The notes under the pieces: model-generated
What the model saw: only the letters and a program-made list of their open reading frames with translations
The model's database searches: none
What the model was told of the DNA's origin: nothing
In this document: piece by piece, positions 33,621-46,625 of the stretch
Position numbering within the stretch: the first letter of the stretch is position 1
Layout: every line of letters begins with the position of its first letter
From: Bradyrhizobium genosp. L
GTDB taxonomy: Bacteria; Pseudomonadota; Alphaproteobacteria; Rhizobiales; Xanthobacteraceae
Direction of reading: 5' to 3'
Assembly: GCF_015624485.1 (NCBI RefSeq)
Contig: NZ_CP061378.1
Coordinates: 6,386,001-6,450,000 of the forward strand
DNA: 64,000 nt
Program-made: the position numbers and the translations under genes

Positions 33621-35384
33621 TTAGAGGCCCAGGTCGCGCTTGCGACCAAAGCCCCATTCGATGCCACCGCCGTCTTTCACAACGCCGGCGACGTGCTGGC
33701 CGAATTTCGTTTCGAGCTCGCGCGACCAGGGCACGAGTTGGAAGCCGAGCCCGTTGTCGATCATGGCGAATCGCCCGGAGGCGAGCGTCAGGCGCTGGCG
33801 ATAGGTGCCCGCTACATGTTCACCGGAGGCGGACTTCACATGAGGCAGGCCCGTGTTGGCCGAGACTTTTGCCGCCACCTCGTCGAGCTCGCGCCGGCGC
33901 AAGGTATCCAGGAGGTCACGCTGCAGGATGATGCGCTGTCCCTGCCGCCGCGCCAGACCTTGCTGAACCAGATGCTCGGTGCGAGCTTCCATGGCGTGGC
34001 GGGTCTCGCGACCGAATCCGCCCATGGCGAGCGGCACCGGATCACGTTCGACCAGTCGGTGGTCCAGCCAGGTGGCGCCTTTCGCGGTGACCTGATCGGC
34101 AAGATCGAGATCGGAACGGATCGCGAGCACCAAGGTGGGGCGTGGATCGCCGGCGTGACCGAAGCGTCGGACTTCAACGATGCCGCCGACGGGCGGCGCA
34201 TGTTCGAAGGCGTCGATTCCTCGGAAGCGGACGTGGTGAGCGCGTCCGTCTGTTCCATCGATCAGGGCGTAGGCCTCACCCGTCAATTCGTCATGCAATC
34301 CCCGATCGACGAGTCGTCCGATGATATGGGACGATGGCTGTCCACCCTCGATGACGTAGTCGGCAACGCCGCGCGCTTCCCCGCGCTCGGTAAAGGCGCG
34401 GTGCATGGTCTTGATGATGTCGCCGCGCATGCCGAGGTCGCGCAAGCTGCGCTCGGCCTCGAGCCCGACCATCCATTCCCCCGGCGCGGCGGATGCCGCG
34501 AAGCCCATCTTCTCCAGATGCTGAAGGCGGCCAACCATCAGGCGCCGGATCTCGGGATCGGAGCTGCCGGGATTTTCGGGGCGAAGATCGATGTAGCCCG
34601 TCTCATCTGCGGCCAGTCGGACCTCCCGATCGAGCCGTGTCCATCGCTCTGCCGTAACTTCTCTCTCCAGCGAATTGCGGATCTCGTGCTCAGGTTTCGG
34701 ACCGAGCTCGATGCCAACCAGCTCCTCGGCCCGTGAGCGCAGGCCCTGGCTGATGTAGTCGCGGGAGATCACGAGATCGGCCCCTTCCTCATCGACTCCC
34801 CGAACAAGGAGATGGACGTGGGGATTGTCCGTGTTCCAGTGATCGACAGCCACCCAGTCGAGCCGCGTGCCGAGGTCCGTCTCCATCTGTTTGGCGAGAT
34901 CGCGGGTGAAGGCCTTAAGGTCGCTCATGTCGCCCGCGTCCTCAGGCGAGACGATGAACCGAAAATGATGCCGGTCATCCTGGCACCGCTCGGCGAAAGC
35001 GGCGGCATCGACACGATCACTGCCGGCATCGAACATCTCGGCCCGCTCGCCGCTTCGGGTTACCCCATCGCGCTTCAGGTATGAAAGATGGGCTGTCAGC
35101 GGCGCCGAGCGAAACGAACGTCCCTTATGGCGAACGACCCGCGCCTTCACCACAACGCGCCGCGCCGAACTGAACAATCGGCCCCGACTAAAGGCGAGCC
35201 GGCCGCGGCCAAAGGTCGAGCGCCCATAGGCCGCAGAACGCTTGCCAGCCGCAGCCTGACCAGAGGTATGTCCAGCCTTCTTTGCGGCGCGTAGCACCTG
35301 GTTGATAAAACTCTTCTGCTTCGGCGCGCGAGTGCTGCGGATGCGCCCAGGCCGAATGCGCAGATCGCTGTCGCCGACGGTCAT
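33621..35384 (-). CDS. Relaxase/mobilisation nuclease (VirD2-like, DUF3363)
   Basis: The product from the ATG at 35384 has 587 residues. The N-terminal half carries the HUH-type metal motif NPHVHLLVRG with the preceding LDWVAVDHWNTD, and SAPLTAHLSYLKRDGV typical of this relaxase group. The C-terminal half is the DUF3363 region (AYALIDGTDGRAHHVRF, ending ETKFGQHVAGVVKDGGGIEWGFGRKRDLGL). It would nick oriT and pilot the strand. The longer frame upstream of 35384 is not family-like. Confidence 0.9.
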   Translation of the reverse strand: MTVGDSDLRIRPGRIRSTRAPKQKSFINQVLRAAKKAGHTSGQAAAGKRSAAYGRSTFGRGRLAFSRGRLFSSARRVVVKARVVRHKGRSFRSAPLTAHLSYLKRDGVTRSGERAEMFDAGSDRVDAAAFAERCQDDRHHFRFIVSPEDAGDMSDLKAFTRDLAKQMETDLGTRLDWVAVDHWNTDNPHVHLLVRGVDEEGADLVISRDYISQGLRSRAEELVGIELGPKPEHEIRNSLEREVTAERWTRLDREVRLAADETGYIDLRPENPGSSDPEIRRLMVGRLQHLEKMGFAASAAPGEWMVGLEAERSLRDLGMRGDIIKTMHRAFTERGEARGVADYVIEGGQPSSHIIGRLVDRGLHDELTGEAYALIDGTDGRAHHVRFRGIDAFEHAPPVGGIVEVRRFGHAGDPRPTLVLAIRSDLDLADQVTAKGATWLDHRLVERDPVPLAMGGFGRETRHAMEARTEHLVQQGLARRQGQRIILQRDLLDTLRRRELDEVAAKVSANTGLPHVKSASGEHVAGTYRQRLTLASGRFAMIDNGLGFQLVPWSRELETKFGQHVAGVVKDGGGIEWGFGRKRDLGL

Positions 35385-35932
35385 GGCCGAGCCTCGAACA
35401 GCACTAAAACAGCTACAGTGCCGAAAATGCCCTTGATTACATTGTTCAAAACGCAAGGCGCGGCACGCGCCCCGACCGACCGGCACGCCAGAAACCAAGC
35501 CATGCCAATGGCTTGCGGTTCGACCGGCGAGCCCCTTTTATCTCGCCTTCCTAATCGGGCGTGCAAAGTCAACCCACGCCTACGCTTTTCTGCGACTTTC
35601 TGCATTTCAATCATCACGCACTCCTTGCAACAACAACGCACACACCTCACCAAAGCCGCGACCGCGGTTTGCATTCTCCAGGCGGGGTCCATGCGTTCCT
35701 TCGCGTTCAGCACCATGGCCGTCGCATGCTCTTCATCGGGTTCGTAAACAGGGCTGTCCAAGCAATCAGTCGCTCTCATCACGTAGGACGGAAGCAGGCA
35801 AGAAATAGCGGACATTCCCCGTTTCGCGGCCCCGCCAGGGGACGCTCACCGCGCGCGCGGATCTCTAATTGTTGCTCCTCCTCAGCATGCCGGCTGCAAC
35901 ACCAGCGCTCATCCTCCGTGATCCCACAGCAG
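35385..35932. other. Region between relaxase gene and IS110 remnant, possible oriT
   Basis: No gene is recognisable in these 548 bases. In related ICEs oriT lies close to the relaxase gene, so this is the first place to look. I cannot point to a nick-site motif. The IS110-like transposase remnant follows immediately and separates this region from the lytic transglycosylase gene that would normally be next. Confidence 0.35.
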
Positions 35933-36996
35933 TTACTGCGCGGGCTTCAAACGCAATCGTTGCGTGACCTTGGCGCCGAAGCCGACGTGGAAGTCGGTCT
36001 CATTGACCCACATCCTGTGCAGGATGCTCGCGAGCTTGCGTGCGACCGCAACGATCGCGCACAACATGCTCGACCGTTTGGCGATCCGCAGGCCCCAGGC
36101 TCGCAGTGCCGACCATTTCCTGACCCGCAACAGAAGGCTCGCTGCCGCCTCGCAGAGCGCCTCGCGAACCGCAATGTCACCCTGTTTGGTAATCCGGCCT
36201 TCGTAGTCGATGGAGGTTCCAGATTGATGACGTCTTGGCGTCAAGCCAAAATGCGCACCAACTGTCCGGGATCGTGCAAAACGAAGGGGATCATCAACGC
36301 CGACCTTAAACGAAAGCGCCGCAACGGGACCAACGCCGGGCACGGTCATCAGCCGACGACAAATTGCATCATGCTGGACCACCTGCAGAAGCACCTTATG
36401 CAGTCTTCGCAGCCCTCGAAGAGCGATCGCCGAACATCCAACATTGTCTCGATCATCAAGGTAAATACCGGATCGCTGTGCTCGAGCAGCTCGCGGACCC
36501 GTGCTTTGTAACCGCCTCGGCCGACCGCCCCGACCAGCAAGCCGTAAGCCCTGAGCGTACCACGAACGTGATTCTCGACATCGATCAGCTTGCGCTTGAG
36601 CAACTTCCTGTTCGCCAGCAACGAACGCATCTTCTGCATCTCGATATTCTTGACATGGACCGCGCGGTACCAACCCAGTCGCATCATCTGCGCAATGCCG
36701 CGGGCATCATTGCGATCAGTTTTGTTGCGCATGGTCGACAGCGAGACACGCATGTGGCGCGCTTCGACAACAACGATCGGAACCCCAGTCGGCTGCAGTT
36801 CACGGTACAACCAGATACCAAGCGATGACGCCTCGACTCCCACTCTATCGAGGCGATCCGCGTAGCTCCCCAAAGCGGAGCGGATCGCCTCCGGCTCCGT
36901 GCTGAGCTTCACTTCGCGGACCGTGAGGCCCTCGTTATCGACGACGCAAGGGCTGGTTTCCTCAAGACCGACGTCCAATCCAACGTAGAGTTTCAT
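35933..36996 (-). mobile_element. IS110-family transposase, frameshifted
   Basis: The N-terminal DEDD domain starts MKLYVGLDVGLEETSPCVVDNEG and contains VGVEASSLGIWLYREL and KTDRNDARGIAQMMRLGWY. The C-terminal transposase_20 domain is in a second frame: LMTVPGVGPVAALSFKVGVDDPLRFARSRTVGAHFGLTPRRHQSG to RLRLKPAQ. The join lies near 36415 at the residues SLFEG. IS110 elements use a serine-containing C-terminal domain and a structured bridge RNA from the element ends; the ends cannot be placed here because they lack inverted repeats. The copy looks inactive. It sits between relaxase and lytic transglycosylase genes. Confidence 0.85.
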
Positions 36997-37260
36997 CGGA
37001 GCTCTCCCTTGTGGCAACGACGTTCCAAGTCGTTGCACCTGGCTCCGGATTCGGCCACGGCCGCGCTATCCCCGTGCACCGGTATCTCGAAGCCCGATTT
37101 GAAGAGCCGTCCTGTCGTCGTGGTTTCCCGGCCGCTGACTCCGACGGCCCAACCTCCAAGCCAACTCGGTGCTCGCGGCGATTTGCGACAAAATGCAGTC
37201 GTGGTCATTGCGGTAGATCCTTCAATCGCGCCTGCCCGAACACGTCGGCTGGTGGCCAAT

Positions 37261-42765: not shown

Positions 42766-43086
42766 TCAGTCGCCGTTCTTGCGCGGCCGCGACCAGATCA
42801 GGGTGTAGCCGTCACCTTCCTCGTCGTCGAACAGGTTCGCGTAGATCGGCGCGTTGAACGAGGGATCGTCGAGCTTGAGCGAGAGGTAGTCGCGGCCCTC
42901 CTCGGAACGCTTCGACCAGGCGGCCCCGATCTCGGCCCGGCCGACGAAGATGCGGTGGCTCGGGGCATTCTCGTTGGAGCGGTTGGTCTCGGGCACGATC
43001 CGAACGCCCTTGGTCTGGAGGCTGAGGGTGACGATCTCGCCCTGGAAGTCGCTGCCGACCTTCTTGAAAGAACCGATGTTAGCCAT
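42766..43086 (-). CDS. DUF736 family protein
   Basis: The 106-residue product starts MANIGSFKKVGSDFQGEIVTLSLQTKGVRIVPETNRSNENAPSHRIFVGRAEIGAAWSKRSEEGRDYLSLKLDDPSFNAPIYANLFDDEEGDGYTLIWSRP. DUF736 is a constant part of rhizobial ICEs and plasmids with unknown function, perhaps DNA binding. An AAGGAG site precedes the ATG. Its leader contains a conserved long hairpin shared with the DUF2493 gene. Confidence 0.92.
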   Translation of the reverse strand: MANIGSFKKVGSDFQGEIVTLSLQTKGVRIVPETNRSNENAPSHRIFVGRAEIGAAWSKRSEEGRDYLSLKLDDPSFNAPIYANLFDDEEGDGYTLIWSRPRKNGD

Positions 43087-43257
43087 GTTACTTCTCCTTG
43101 CTGTTTCGAGCCGCGACCACCGCGGCCTCGATGGCGATCTACAGGCCGAAGACGATCGACGACGCACCCGCCCGCGGGCCGGAGCGCAGCGAAGGACGCC
43201 AGCGGGGCGACTTTCTTGTTTCGCGAGGAATGGGCGTAGCCCAGGGGAAGAAAGTCG
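43087..43257 (-). ncRNA. Structured mRNA leader of the DUF736 gene (shared motif, copy 1)
   Basis: In the minus-strand leader AAGAAAGTCG (43248-43257) pairs perfectly with CGACTTTCTT (43208-43217). Inside lies a second hairpin (TGGGC 43231-43235 with GCCCA 43239-43243) and the sequence CGCGAAAC. Towards the gene, blocks such as CGCTGCGCTCCGGCCC and GATCGCCATCGAGGCCGC are also found in the leader of the DUF2493 gene (45244-45427). The stem differs between the copies only by paired changes, which supports an RNA structure. Possible roles are cis-regulation or binding of an ICE protein. Confidence 0.6.
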
Positions 43258-43615
43258 ACACACGGCGTTGCGTTCAGGCGATCGAGGCGCAGCCGCTCTT
43301 CGGCCAGATCAAGCCATCAAGAGGCCACGGGGTCCGTGCGCTAAACAGCATCCTCGGAAGAAGTCGTGGCGAATATCGGTTGTGCTGCACAAGAAGTCGC
43401 TGCGTTCAGGCGAAGGGACGGAAACAAAAGCGAAGGAATAGGTCGGCTCGACTGCCTTGAACAATCCGCGATGAGATGCCCCTGCCGGCGTTGCCTCGTG
43501 CCGGGACGTCAGGCGTTAGCTAGCAATCGTTTCGGAACGGGCCGCACCATCGATGATTGATCACACGACCACCAACGCTTCGACCATAGAGAACCTCGCC
43601 CGACGAGATAGAGGC
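43258..43615. other. Intergenic region, no gene seen
   Basis: Upstream of the structured leader no coding frame is convincing. It should hold the promoter of the DUF736 transcript. Confidence 0.4.
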
Positions 43616-44092
43616 TTATCCCTGCCGCGTCGTGGCAGTGAGAGCCGGCTGAGATCCGTTCGGCAAAGCCTCGGCCGGTCGCAGGGGGTCGGCAAAGATT
43701 GTCATCCGCGTCCAGGCCGTGCCGCCGACCGCTATAGCGCCGATCCAGACAAACGCGTCGCGCCATGGCAATGAAGGCACTCCAATTTGCGATAAGCCAT
43801 GAACGACGTTATAGCCCGCGACGGCCGCCGGAACAGCAAAAGCGGCGGCGATCACGGCACGAAGAAGCGTGGATCGAGTCAAAGCAAACGCCGTTTGCCC
43901 AATGAAGAGAGTGAGCACACCTGCAATAATGGCGACACAGAACGCTATGGCGACACCCGCGCCACCGTGTATCGCTGCCAGCCATGCAGAAAGCGCAACG
44001 AAGAATGGAAACGCATAGATAGCGAGTGTGAAAATCAGCCAGCAGAACAGGCCGATGCCAAGCATATTGAGAATGAGTCCAAGGATAAGCAT
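43616..44092 (-). CDS. Unknown inner-membrane protein of the ICE
   Basis: The 158-residue product has four to five membrane helices (LILGLILNMLGIGLFCWLIFTLAIYAFPFFVALSAWLAAI, then GVAIAFCVAIIAGVLTLFIGQTAFAL, then LLRAVIAAAFAVPAAVAGYNVVHGL and AFVWIGAIAVGGTAW) and a short polar C-terminus. It is found in related ICEs between DUF736 and DUF2493 genes. GGAG lies before the ATG. Function unknown. Confidence 0.7.
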   Translation of the reverse strand: MLILGLILNMLGIGLFCWLIFTLAIYAFPFFVALSAWLAAIHGGAGVAIAFCVAIIAGVLTLFIGQTAFALTRSTLLRAVIAAAFAVPAAVAGYNVVHGLSQIGVPSLPWRDAFVWIGAIAVGGTAWTRMTIFADPLRPAEALPNGSQPALTATTRQG

Positions 44093-44310
44093 GGTGGTGG
44101 CTCCACGACAAAAGATATGACGGTCGCGCCTTCCACCACTACCACGGCGCGGTTGAGACTATAACGAAGACAAGCGGCTGCGGGAACAATTATCCTCTTT
44201 GGCCGTGCACGACAAAAGAACAACCACTCTGCTTGCCTCAAATCGGCGGAGTTTAAGAGAACTGCAGTCGTGTGAGTTGCTTAGATGAGGAAGCGCCGGT
44301 GGAGCGGCGC

Positions 44311-45243
44311 TTACGCGCCGCCAAACTTCCAGACGGGAACACCGAGCTTCTTCGCCTTGTCGGCAAGGTTGTCCTGTATCCCGGTGCCCGGGAAGTGCAT
44401 GACGCCGATCGGAAGCGCCGCGAGCATGGCGTCGTTGCGCTTGAACGGAGCTGCCTTGGCATGCTTGGTCCAGTCCGGCTTGAATGCGATCTGCGGAACC
44501 CTGCGGTTAGCGGCCCATTTGGCAACGATCAGTTCGGCGCCCTTCGGCGAGCCACCATGGAGAAGCACCATGTCCGGGTGCTTGGCGTGGACCTTGTCGA
44601 GACGGTCCCAGATCAGGGCGACGTCGTTGAAATCGAGTCCGCCGGTGAGCGCAATCTTGGGTCCCGATGGCAACATCGTCTCGGTCTCCGCGCGGCGCTT
44701 GGCTACGAGGAAATCGCGGCTGTCGATGACAGCGGATGTGAGTGCGCGATGATTGACCAGTGATCCAGTGCGGGGGCGCCAGGGTGAGCCGGTGTGAACC
44801 TCGAATTGGTCTGTTGCCAGGTCGCGGAACAGTTCCATGGCGTTGCGCCGTTCGATCATCGTGATGCCTTCAGCCGTGAGCCGTTCCAGTTCGACTGACC
44901 GCACCTCCGAGCCATTCTGCTCGCGCTGGCTCTTCTGCTGCGCCTGTTCGTTGTCGTCGAGTTCGCGCTCGATGCGACCCGTGGCGCGGTGAAAGAGGTT
45001 GACGGTCGACCAGAGCAGATTCTCGAGGTCGGGTTCGAGTCGGGTGTCGCTTAGGGTCGCCACGAAAGCGTCGAAGATATCGGCGATCGCGCCAGCGATG
45101 ATTTTGGCTTCGGGTAACGGCCTCGGATCGGGCTCGTCGTGGAAGGGACGGTGGCCGTAGAGCTGAAGCTCGTTGAGCGCATGAACGGTCGGGGATGAAC
45201 TGTGCTGCGGTTTGAACTCGGCATCGTCGTGCTCGGTCGTCAT
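44311..45243 (-). CDS. DUF2493 domain protein (SLOG-like nucleotide-binding fold)
   Basis: The product from the ATG at 45243 has 310 residues. The C-terminal 110 residues (KIALTGGLDFNDVALIWDRLDKVHAKHPDMVLLHGGSPKGAELIVAKWAANRRVPQIAFKPDW and MHFPGTGIQDNLADKAKKLGVPVWKFG) are DUF2493, a Rossmann-like fold related to SLOG domains that bind nucleotides or ADP-ribose derivatives. The N-terminal 180 residues are polar and helical. It is a standard gene of this ICE type. Its leader has the shared long hairpin. Confidence 0.9.
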   Translation of the reverse strand: MTTEHDDAEFKPQHSSSPTVHALNELQLYGHRPFHDEPDPRPLPEAKIIAGAIADIFDAFVATLSDTRLEPDLENLLWSTVNLFHRATGRIERELDDNEQAQQKSQREQNGSEVRSVELERLTAEGITMIERRNAMELFRDLATDQFEVHTGSPWRPRTGSLVNHRALTSAVIDSRDFLVAKRRAETETMLPSGPKIALTGGLDFNDVALIWDRLDKVHAKHPDMVLLHGGSPKGAELIVAKWAANRRVPQIAFKPDWTKHAKAAPFKRNDAMLAALPIGVMHFPGTGIQDNLADKAKKLGVPVWKFGGA

Positions 45244-45427
45244 GGTGAGAGGTCCTTTGCCGGATTGACCGCGTCCATCGCGGCCTTCGTGGCGATCACC
45301 AGACGGCGGGCGAAACGGACCAGAACCCGAAGCGCAGCGCAGGGCCGGAGCAAAGCGGAGGATGGCAGGGAGGCGGCTATTTTGTTTCGCGATGCAAAGG
45401 CGCGTAAGCGCCGGCGGAAAATAGCCG
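45244..45427 (-). ncRNA. Structured mRNA leader of the DUF2493 gene (shared motif, copy 2)
   Basis: AAAATAGCCG (45418-45427) and CGGCTATTTT (45374-45383) are perfect complements enclosing a second hairpin (GGCGC 45399-45403, GCGCC 45408-45412) and GCGAAACA. Compared with copy 1 the outer stem differs at three base pairs, each compensated on the opposite arm. The part nearest the gene shares GCTCCGGCCC and GATCGCCACGAAGGCCGC-like blocks with copy 1. The two downstream genes are unrelated, so the leader is conserved for itself. Confidence 0.6.
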
Positions 45428-45560
45428 CACCTCTGCCATTGCCGGACCGGACCGCCTGCCGTCCGATCGCCCTCTAGAAGGCCGGGGACGCGGGCTCTGT
45501 CCGGCAACGCTGACCTCGAGCTGACTGGCGGTGACGAGAGCGCGTTCAAAGCGCTTGCTG

Positions 45561-46625
45561 TTATCCCGCGACGGTCGTCGTCGAAGGAACGAAGCGGACA
45601 ACGTCCTGTGGCACAAGCTGTAAGCGCAAGGCCGCCTCAAGTTTTTCAGCGCCCAGCGTGCGCAGATCTTCGTTGAAGTCATCGAACCTGGGCGACAATG
45701 TGAACCTGGGCGACAATGTGAACGCCTCGATGCCCGCCGCTTCTGCGCGTTTCGTCAAGGTCATCGCGGCGCCCTCTCCAGCTAGATCGGCGTCGCGTGC
45801 AATGTACAGGCGGCGCACCGTCAGTGGGAGGAGCATGGCGGCGAGATGGTTGGCAGAGAGTGCCGCGGCCATCGGCAAAGTCGGCAGCACACAGCGAAGC
45901 GAAAGCATGGTCTCGATACCCTCACCTGCTGCGAGCACATCGTCAGCAGAACCAAAACGGACGGCGTTGCCCAGGAGGTCGCCCATGGCGCGTCGCGGCG
46001 TGTCGATCGGCGCCTTGCCGCGACCGGACGGGTCAAGCCAAGTGCGGTGCACGCCCGTGATCCGGCCGTCGAGGTCGGTGACACGGGCAATCATCGCCGG
46101 CCAGACTTCAGTCGGCGAGTCGTCGTTCACCCGGTAATAGCAGCGCGGATGGAAGCGCAACGCACCTTCGTGATGCACGGATGGAATGCCTCGTCGGCGC
46201 AAATAGGCTTCGACAACAGTTCGGCTGATCGACTGCGACATGCCGAACAGTCGCCGCGCTGCCTCTCGGGATCCGGGCAGGGCCTTGGTGTGTCCGGACA
46301 TCCATTCGGGGGGAGGATCGGGCCGAGGCAGCTTCAAGAATCGTCGCGCCTCGTTGGCAACATCGCGGAAATCAAGCAACCCGCAACTCTCACGGATAAT
46401 ATCGAGCAGGTCGCCATGCTCGCCGGTCGCCGCGTCCGTCCACTTGCCCGCAGGTCCTTTGGTCGATGCAATCAACCGCACGAACATGGAGCGCCCGGGT
46501 GTATTTCTGCTATCGCCGACCAGCCAATAACGGCCCTGGCGACGGCCGTTGGAGAGGTAGTGCCGACACACCGCCTCCGCCTCGCGTGCGAGGCGGAGCG
46601 CCAATTCGGAAGCATCGCGGGGCAT
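45561..46625 (-). CDS. Toprim-domain protein (DUF7146-like)
   Basis: The 354-residue product starts MPRDASELALRLAREAEAVCRHYLSNGRRQGRYWLVGD, the DUF7146 zinc/primase-like N-terminus, and has a Toprim core: VLAAGEGIETMLSLR (Glu) and RRLYIARDADLAGEGAA (DxD). Toprim proteins of this group are thought to act in ICE DNA primer synthesis or replication. Its ATG overlaps the helicase stop (TAATG). A tandem 18-bp duplication near the C-terminus (45684-45719) repeats the residues TLSPRF. Confidence 0.88.
   Translation of the reverse strand: MPRDASELALRLAREAEAVCRHYLSNGRRQGRYWLVGDSRNTPGRSMFVRLIASTKGPAGKWTDAATGEHGDLLDIIRESCGLLDFRDVANEARRFLKLPRPDPPPEWMSGHTKALPGSREAARRLFGMSQSISRTVVEAYLRRRGIPSVHHEGALRFHPRCYYRVNDDSPTEVWPAMIARVTDLDGRITGVHRTWLDPSGRGKAPIDTPRRAMGDLLGNAVRFGSADDVLAAGEGIETMLSLRCVLPTLPMAAALSANHLAAMLLPLTVRRLYIARDADLAGEGAAMTLTKRAEAAGIEAFTLSPRFTLSPRFDDFNEDLRTLGAEKLEAALRLQLVPQDVVRFVPSTTTVAG

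Follow-up and report, generated by a model that had tools for sequence, protein, structure and literature searches.

A conserved structured element upstream of establishment genes in conjugative elements probably folds as single-stranded DNA

Introduction

Promoters that act on single-stranded DNA (ssDNA) have experimental support, in the literature surveyed, on F and ColIb-P9. In the available text of PMC9849209, the leading genes of F are transcribed from the transferred strand (T-strand) as template, Frpo1 and Frpo2 fold on ssDNA and are required for early expression, and Frpo reconstitutes -35 and -10 boxes within its stem. A leading-region anti-CRISPR gene controlled by Frpo protects the plasmid on entry (excerpted text of PMC11541004). 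Here, a structured element of ∼230 nt is described that lies directly upstream of a DUF736 gene and of a DUF2493 gene in an integrative and conjugative element (ICE) of Bradyrhizobium genosp. L. The DNA analysed, referred to as the window, is the whole 64,000 nt stretch from 6,386,001 to 6,450,000 of contig NZ_CP061378.1 (assembly GCF_015624485.1), and all coordinates are positions within it unless stated. The element probably folds as ssDNA on the strand opposite to the mRNA, and the best reading of the evidence is a new family of ssDNA initiation elements unrelated to Frpo.

Two other systems are relevant. The virion RNA polymerase of phage N4 reads a GCGAAGC hairpin on ssDNA (P1 sequence, as given in the part of PMC12633501 available). 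The STAXI motif (Weinberg 2010) is found near SSB, antirestriction and integrase genes, and its authors weighed ssDNA or RNA as the functional form (accessible text of PMC2864571). The titles and opening lines of abstracts listed for the literature on DUF736, DUF2493, single-stranded promoters, Frpo and the leading region, and structured RNA or ssDNA describe no such element as the one reported here.

Results and Discussion

The element in two leaders of the window

An earlier note on the window had proposed a structured mRNA leader shared by the DUF736 gene (42766–43086, minus strand; PF05284, E 8e-36) and the DUF2493 gene (44311–45243, minus strand; Pfam YAcAr, PF10686, E 6.4e-29; genes of the YAcAr type (PF10686) are labelled DUF2493 in plasmid records). 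The 10-bp outer stems are as described there, with CGACTTTCTT/AAGAAAGTCG before DUF736 and CGGCTATTTT/AAAATAGCCG before DUF2493. The three differences between them are all compensated on the opposite arm. Both leaders also share GCGAAAC, an inner hairpin and conserved blocks that extend as far as the start codon. The stem had been drawn too short, since further pairing beneath the first 10 pairs brings it to about 20 columns, and the leader element, though present, starts ∼70 nt further upstream than had been placed, at about 43338 and 45494. There is one element per leader, longer than first described.

Copy A (43105–43338, minus strand) is directly upstream of the DUF736 gene and copy B (45263–45494, minus strand) directly upstream of the DUF2493 gene. 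The ends of both are approximate; those of copy A follow from projecting aligned and covarying columns onto the window. Both copies extend to near the ribosome-binding sites of their genes on the minus strand, and over a 61-nt stretch they are 77% identical. In copy A, the gene-distal arm of the main stem H4 (43248–43267, plus strand) pairs with the gene-proximal arm (43197–43217, plus strand), as indicated by covarying columns 122-139/177-194, two invariant T-A pairs and the predicted fold. Between the arms are an apical hairpin (43231–43243, plus strand), with the loop TAC on the mRNA strand and hence GTA, a GNA triloop, on the plus strand, and the conserved unpaired TCGCGAAAC (43218–43226, minus strand). 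The side hairpin H5 (43179–43195, plus strand) has the plus-strand core GCGCAGC, of the form GCGNAGC, and is defined by covarying pairs 201-207 and 202-206 and by loop counts, and the short side hairpin H5b (43167–43178, plus strand) by covariation and fold. The distal arms of helices H1 and H2 (43298–43310, plus strand) pair with the proximal arms at 43136–43151 (plus strand).

Copy B has the same parts, with the distal arm of H4 at 45418–45438 and its partner, the proximal arm, at 45363–45383 (both plus strand), the conserved unpaired TCGCGAAAC at 45384–45392 (minus strand), an apical hairpin at 45397–45413 (plus strand; loop TTAC on the mRNA strand, GTAA on the plus strand) and H5 at 45345–45361 (plus strand; core GCTTTGC on the mRNA strand, without a GNA loop). 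Minimum free energies calculated for DNA are -71.1 for the plus strand versus -68.9 for the minus strand over 43101–43340 (copy A), and -71.0 and -66.6, respectively, over 45258–45500 (copy B). A second pair of copies was seen in the same genome (C1:1017886-1018014 and 1020018-1020113), with a relaxase gene downstream at ∼1026 kb.

No Rfam family covers the element. Rfam 15 gave no match in the window at the gathering threshold, and with E values up to 5 leader A had none and leader B had mir-43_2 and Acido-Lenti-1, both far below cut-off. STAXI, which we take to be among the 4227 Rfam families scanned, had no covariance-model match in the window.

Covariation across copies

A covariance model of the core was built from 25 copies, and searches with it recovered further copies in many genomes. 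From 259 nhmmer hits in 264 loci, 221 distinct copies were obtained after hits with <200 nt past the core start were dropped. One copy with short upstream sequence or a far start was then set aside and 32 sharing >60% of their 8-mers with a retained copy were removed, leaving 188 non-redundant copies with an effective number of 121. Covariation and wobble counts use sequence weights and no phylogenetic null.

Covariation is strongest in helices H4, H2, H3 and H1 and in side hairpins H5 and H5b, with 34 pairs at z≥5 inside stacked helices. Through H1 and H2, the outer parts of the element covary with each other, and its outermost ends are paired in the predicted fold. H4 carries the apical hairpin, and H5 and H5b sit on the gene-proximal arm. 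H4 is up to about 20 columns long; in its middle, the five columns 126-130 are weak, being paired in only 43-63% of copies. When 98 distinct copies were aligned by the model, the inner 10 pairs of H4 were 91.3% paired, and 8 of the 10 had changed on both sides. Doubly changed cells number 160 versus 53.5 in shuffles, and none of 500 shuffles reached 160. For the five H4 covariation measures, at most 1/500 shuffles matched any (this being so for one measure), and the signal was lost when the partner was slid.

The strong covariation over many copies bears out the earlier claim of a selected nucleic-acid structure, conserved in mobile elements before genes that are unrelated to each other. Each of the two stem types is found again in many genomes, and the two leaders are therefore not the product of a local duplication. 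Two copies (L026 and L037) have extra long hairpins within the apical part, and the apex of the element seems to tolerate whole inserted stems.

Strand of the fold

RNA helices tolerate G·U pairs, and ssDNA helices tolerate G·T. A G·U on one strand corresponds to A·C on the other, and strand-symmetric mutation would be expected to produce about equal frequencies. At the 34 covarying pairs of the 188 copies, read on the mRNA strand, A·C accounts for 183 weighted cells versus 80 for G·T. A·C is commoner in 24 of the 34 pairs (bootstrap range of the A·C/G·T ratio 1.87-2.86), and the asymmetry persists after correction for column composition (observed/expected 0.44 for A·C versus 0.25 for G·T). 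In the 10 inner pairs of H4, counted in the second alignment (980 cells), there are 36 A·C and 4 G·T, together with 43 pyrimidine-pyrimidine (30 of them C·C) and 6 purine-purine cells. Given this excess of A·C and C·C on the mRNA strand, the departures from pairing in H4 are mostly G·T and G·G on the complement. Cobalamin riboswitches from the same order (26 copies, from 26 of 30 loci) gave the opposite balance, with 11 A·C and 37 G·T, and G·T commoner in 12 pairs versus 2. The helices of the element thus do not favour G·U over A·C on the mRNA strand, as those of an mRNA leader or riboswitch would. Frpo consensus folds from each strand were left out of this comparison, as the number of wobbles is biased by which strand is folded.

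The loops point the same way. H5 has a closed triloop in 112 of the 188 copies, 81 of which are TNC on the mRNA strand and hence GNA on the complement. Apical triloops are TNC on the mRNA strand in 72/98 and the mirror image, GNA on the mRNA strand, in 4/98. Among H5 tetraloops, 50 of 64 are TNNC; read on the complement, at least 36 of those 50 take the form GNCA rather than the RNA-type GNRA. TNNC is found in only 20 of 64 apical tetraloops. Of the window copies, A has GNA loops and B is a partial exception, with TTT in H5 and GTAA on the complement at the apex. Hairpins of the general form d(GCGNAGC) are stable in DNA, a rule that is weak in RNA. The DNA hairpin CGCGAAGCG, with a GAA triloop on a 3-bp stem, is exceptionally stable, with a melting temperature of 88.5 C (available portion of PMC10527192).

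Folded with DNA parameters, 182 of the 188 copies are more stable on the complement. This figure is undercut by the downstream coding windows, which lean to the complement as well (160/187); composition therefore matters, and dinucleotide-shuffle controls were added for 45 of the 188 elements, drawn at random, and for the first 16 of 24 Frpo copies. The excess over shuffles favours the complement by -3.09±0.52 kcal/mol (39/45 copies), and for Frpo from F and nine F-like plasmids it is -3.14±0.42 (15/16 tested). RNA parameters gave the complement an advantage over shuffles of 3.3 kcal/mol (37/45), and the cobalamin riboswitch, also with RNA parameters, +3.05±0.77. The energy test is partly one of composition and is not clean, and it is supportive only. 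On the combined evidence of wobble balance, loops and composition-controlled energies, which favour the complementary strand, the riboswitch-like mRNA structure of the earlier note is probably on the wrong strand, and the element probably folds as ssDNA on the opposite one.

Polarity and the transferred strand

Among the matches listed, to which all counts in this paragraph refer, 177 copies were placed against relaxase genes. A relaxase gene lies within 20 kb of 119 copies, on 71 contigs; 116 of them point towards it on the same strand, and within 60 kb the figure is 124 of 133. A further 8 copies are >60 kb from a relaxase and 36 have no relaxase match on their contig. The polarity is kept for the MOBQ relaxase TraA (10/11 copies); in pAt, traG and traD lie between the element and TraA, on the other strand. 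Two copies pointing away from the relaxase were seen in G599 and G523.

Relaxase genes are typically on the lagging side (accessible text of PMC11541004), so an element that points to the relaxase would lie on the leading side, and its complement would be the transferred strand. The MOBQ consensus for the origin of transfer (oriT), as found in the available part of PMC3832669, was scored on both strands upstream of TraA in 11 contigs. In 9/11 contigs the best match falls on the strand complementary to that of traA, with 10-13 of 13 letters, and in the other 2/11 no match above chance was found in this region. The nic motif is on the complement in 6/6 contigs whose copies point to TraA and in one whose copy does not; pAt agrees, with 10 of 13 letters. 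A flanking AGCGACGTAT or CTCGTAAG recurs beside the nic motif. One plasmid has 10 nic-motif matches with ≤2 mismatches versus 13.75 expected, and a second, weaker GCGCCCT is on the other strand nearby. A weak-scoring copy, G566:C46:16467-16572 (with L317), points away from TraA, with the nic motif on the usual strand.

Distribution and downstream genes

Of 397 genomes sampled from the order, 104 carry the core (E limit 0.001), as do 23 of 289 sampled across the class (E limit 0.01) and 32 of 299 of the phylum (E limit 0.01), 4 of these 32 being outside the class; the three samples overlap. The class sampled is judged from the plasmid matches to be the Alphaproteobacteria, and nearly all of the 221 distinct copies come from the class of the window. 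Matches to the DUF736 leader were found in 519 plasmid records, 347 of which are predicted to be conjugative, and matches to the DUF2493 leader in 78. Plasmid records with the element are headed by Agrobacterium, Rhizobium and Bradyrhizobium, and genomes often hold more than one copy.

Copies are directly upstream of the starts of several gene families, and the distance from the start of the core to the ATG is 178-200 nt in 23 of 28 sampled values. By tblastn, the gene downstream of the 221 copies is DUF736 in 132, DUF2493 in 75 and neither in 14. Pfam searches on five of these 14 identified one ArdC (anti-restriction), one divergent DUF736 and three without a family. As DUF736, DUF2493 and ArdC are all found downstream, the element is not tied to one protein. 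Stem type, as read from a single alignment column, generally tracks the downstream gene, though with exceptions: it is TTTYTT in 104 of 110 non-redundant DUF736 copies and TATTTT in 50 of 64 non-redundant DUF2493 copies. Two short proteins encoded behind copies (L057:1729-1956 and L131:894-1136; 76 and 81 aa) have MSWDEY near the start and no Pfam family; they are alike by eye and are candidate new establishment proteins.

Proposed function

The structure is conserved, folds on the complementary strand, has DNA-type loops and points towards the relaxase, and the MOBQ nic motif is on that complement; these points are what the present data show. We consider it reasonably probable that the element is a cis-acting ssDNA promoter of early establishment genes in conjugative elements, and it probably switches these genes on as the mobile element first enters a new cell. 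On transfer of the ICE or plasmid, the T-strand, which would be the complement of these mRNAs, would enter the recipient first, as ssDNA. The element on it would fold into a rod with a branched middle, comprising H1/H2, H3, the long H4 with its apical hairpin, H5 and H5b, and this fold would set the site of initiation while the template is still single-stranded. Transcription of the gene next to it (DUF736, DUF2493, ArdC or another establishment gene) would then follow at once, ahead of second-strand synthesis. We infer that the complement is also the T-strand in the non-MOBQ relaxase families, that an RNA polymerase would start at the element, and which polymerase or factor would read it. A narrower and more tentative proposal is that, in place of -35/-10 boxes, exceptionally stable GNA mini-hairpins of the incoming strand might guide a polymerase, or a factor carried by the element, to transcribe the establishment genes while the second strand has yet to be made, and that these elements might form a new, Frpo-unrelated class of ssDNA promoter widespread in alphaproteobacterial conjugative elements.

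Several observations weigh against an ssDNA promoter on the T-strand. Seven of the 34 covarying pairs show the opposite wobble, with G·T commoner on the mRNA strand, and G·T makes up 20% of column pair 81-252, which is not among the 34. With DNA parameters the cobalamin control also leans slightly to the complement (-0.75±0.46, 19/26), and when z-scores are compared, only 8/16 Frpo copies have the lower value on the complement. Among the matches listed, nine of the 133 copies within 60 kb are not directed at the nearest relaxase. The polarity supports the proposal and does not prove it, since conservation of a block of co-directional genes would also produce it. Single nic matches are weak, since at least 10 of the 13 consensus letters occur in 53/300 shuffles, and the GCGCCCT strand of MOBQ nic is taken to be the strand cut. 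No -35/-10 pair is enriched in the 188 copies on either strand, the best scores, obtained with the E. coli consensus only, being like those of shuffles. The N4 virion polymerase shows that hairpin promoters free of such boxes exist. No sequence similarity to Frpo was found by blastn of 24 Frpo copies against the 188 elements or by nhmmer of the core against Frpo, and the fold is branched, with GNA mini-hairpins, where Frpo is predicted mostly as a rod. With neither a Frpo sequence match nor enriched -35/-10 boxes, the element was not filed as a Frpo.

Alternative explanations

The main rival is a single-strand initiation site, at which the folded T-strand would recruit primase, primosome or RNA polymerase for priming of the second strand, with gene expression incidental. 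It draws on the same strand, loop and polarity evidence, and the lack of enriched promoter boxes and the exceptional stability of the GAA-triloop hairpin CGCGAAGCG (PMC10527192, portion available) also suit it. A reference title in PMC11541004 describes Frpo as serving both transcription and primer synthesis. However, a priming site would need neither a position before particular start codons nor the near-fixed distance to them, and we regard it as unlikely, although it is a serious competitor to the promoter.

A structured mRNA leader, whether an RNA-binding-protein site, an RNA thermometer or a riboswitch, would explain the putative 5′ untranslated position, the strong covariation and the stable RNA folds of the sense strand. 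It is nevertheless improbable, because the helices hold more A·C than G·U, G·U is nearly absent from the main stem where a riboswitch shows the opposite, and even RNA-parameter folding prefers the complement over shuffles.

A structured antisense or divergent RNA made from the opposite strand and regulating the downstream gene is compatible with the wobble and energy evidence, which fixes the strand and not the sugar. However, on the complement the triloops are mostly GNA and the H5 tetraloops mostly GNCA, GNRA being a minority among the tetraloops listed. Moreover, the element precedes unrelated genes in one fixed orientation and stops near the ribosome-binding site, so that the promoter of such an RNA would have to sit inside varied coding sequences. 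There is accordingly little to commend it.

An N-terminal extension or leader peptide is hardly credible even though open reading frames (42766–43263 and 44311–45549) pass through the leaders in frame, because GC-rich DNA gives open frames and the distance between the H4 arms is spread over all frames (75/62/51 of 188 by remainder modulo 3).

Genetic context in the window

The window carries an ICE backbone that includes TraG, an RlxS-like relaxase, a transglycosylase, a signal-peptidase-like gene, DUF2840, RPA, HTH_17, DUF736, DUF2493 and Toprim, followed by a strawberry-notch helicase, a ParB-like gene (below the Pfam cut-off), ArdC and Ku. Copies A and B point towards the relaxase gene (33621–35498, minus strand; PF11843, PF03432), which is RlxS-like by gene order. 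In the related ICEMlSymR7A an rdfS-traF-msi107 operon is upstream of oriT and rlxS, with oriT between the operon and rlxS (text available of PMC11963761), and DUF736 genes are present on all elements compared in the accessible part of PMC8627217. In the window, oriT is expected just upstream of the relaxase gene and was not located. The interval where it is expected, between the relaxase and transglycosylase genes, contains an IS110-family transposase gene (35933–37038; PF02371, PF01548) that is apparently split over two frames, and an IS110-like gene occupies the corresponding site of a 16.6-kb Gluconacetobacter plasmid.

The Toprim gene contains a perfect 18-bp tandem duplication (45684–45719), a multiple of three. 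The Ku gene (PF02735; 55194–56156) and an SRAP gene (PF02586; 56885–57901) are near ArdC, and their predicted products suggest end-protection and DNA-damage functions beside the establishment region.

Significance

If the proposal is correct, a family of ssDNA promoters unrelated in sequence to those described stands before antirestriction and other establishment genes in roughly one in four genomes sampled from the order (104/397). This would suggest that early expression from the incoming strand is general in conjugation and of more than one origin, ICEs such as symbiosis islands included. The balance of A·C and G·U in covarying helices would offer a simple sequence test of ssDNA versus RNA that could be used on other orphan structured motifs, STAXI among them.

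Comparison with known systems

The element resembles riboswitches and other RNA leaders in having a conserved structure upstream of a gene, but the wobble asymmetry is the opposite. STAXI differs in consisting of tandem pseudoknots with UUCG loops. Like the phage N4 promoters, the element would present an ssDNA hairpin with a GCGAAGC-type core, though the N4 promoter is a short single hairpin read by a phage polymerase. Unlike Frpo, it is not enriched in -35/-10 boxes within its stem, and the hosts differ, the best 5000 Frpo records being nearly all from Enterobacteriaceae whereas those of the element are headed by Agrobacterium, Rhizobium and Bradyrhizobium. The closest likeness is nonetheless to the Frpo and ssi elements of F, ColIb-P9 and related plasmids. 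These too are noncoding, some 200-340 nt long and directly upstream of leading-region genes, the leading position of the genes behind the present element being deduced from that of the relaxase and from the MOBQ nic motif. They likewise occur in more than one copy per mobile element and fold on the template (T-) strand, and the composition-controlled excess stability of that strand is of the same size in the element and in Frpo.

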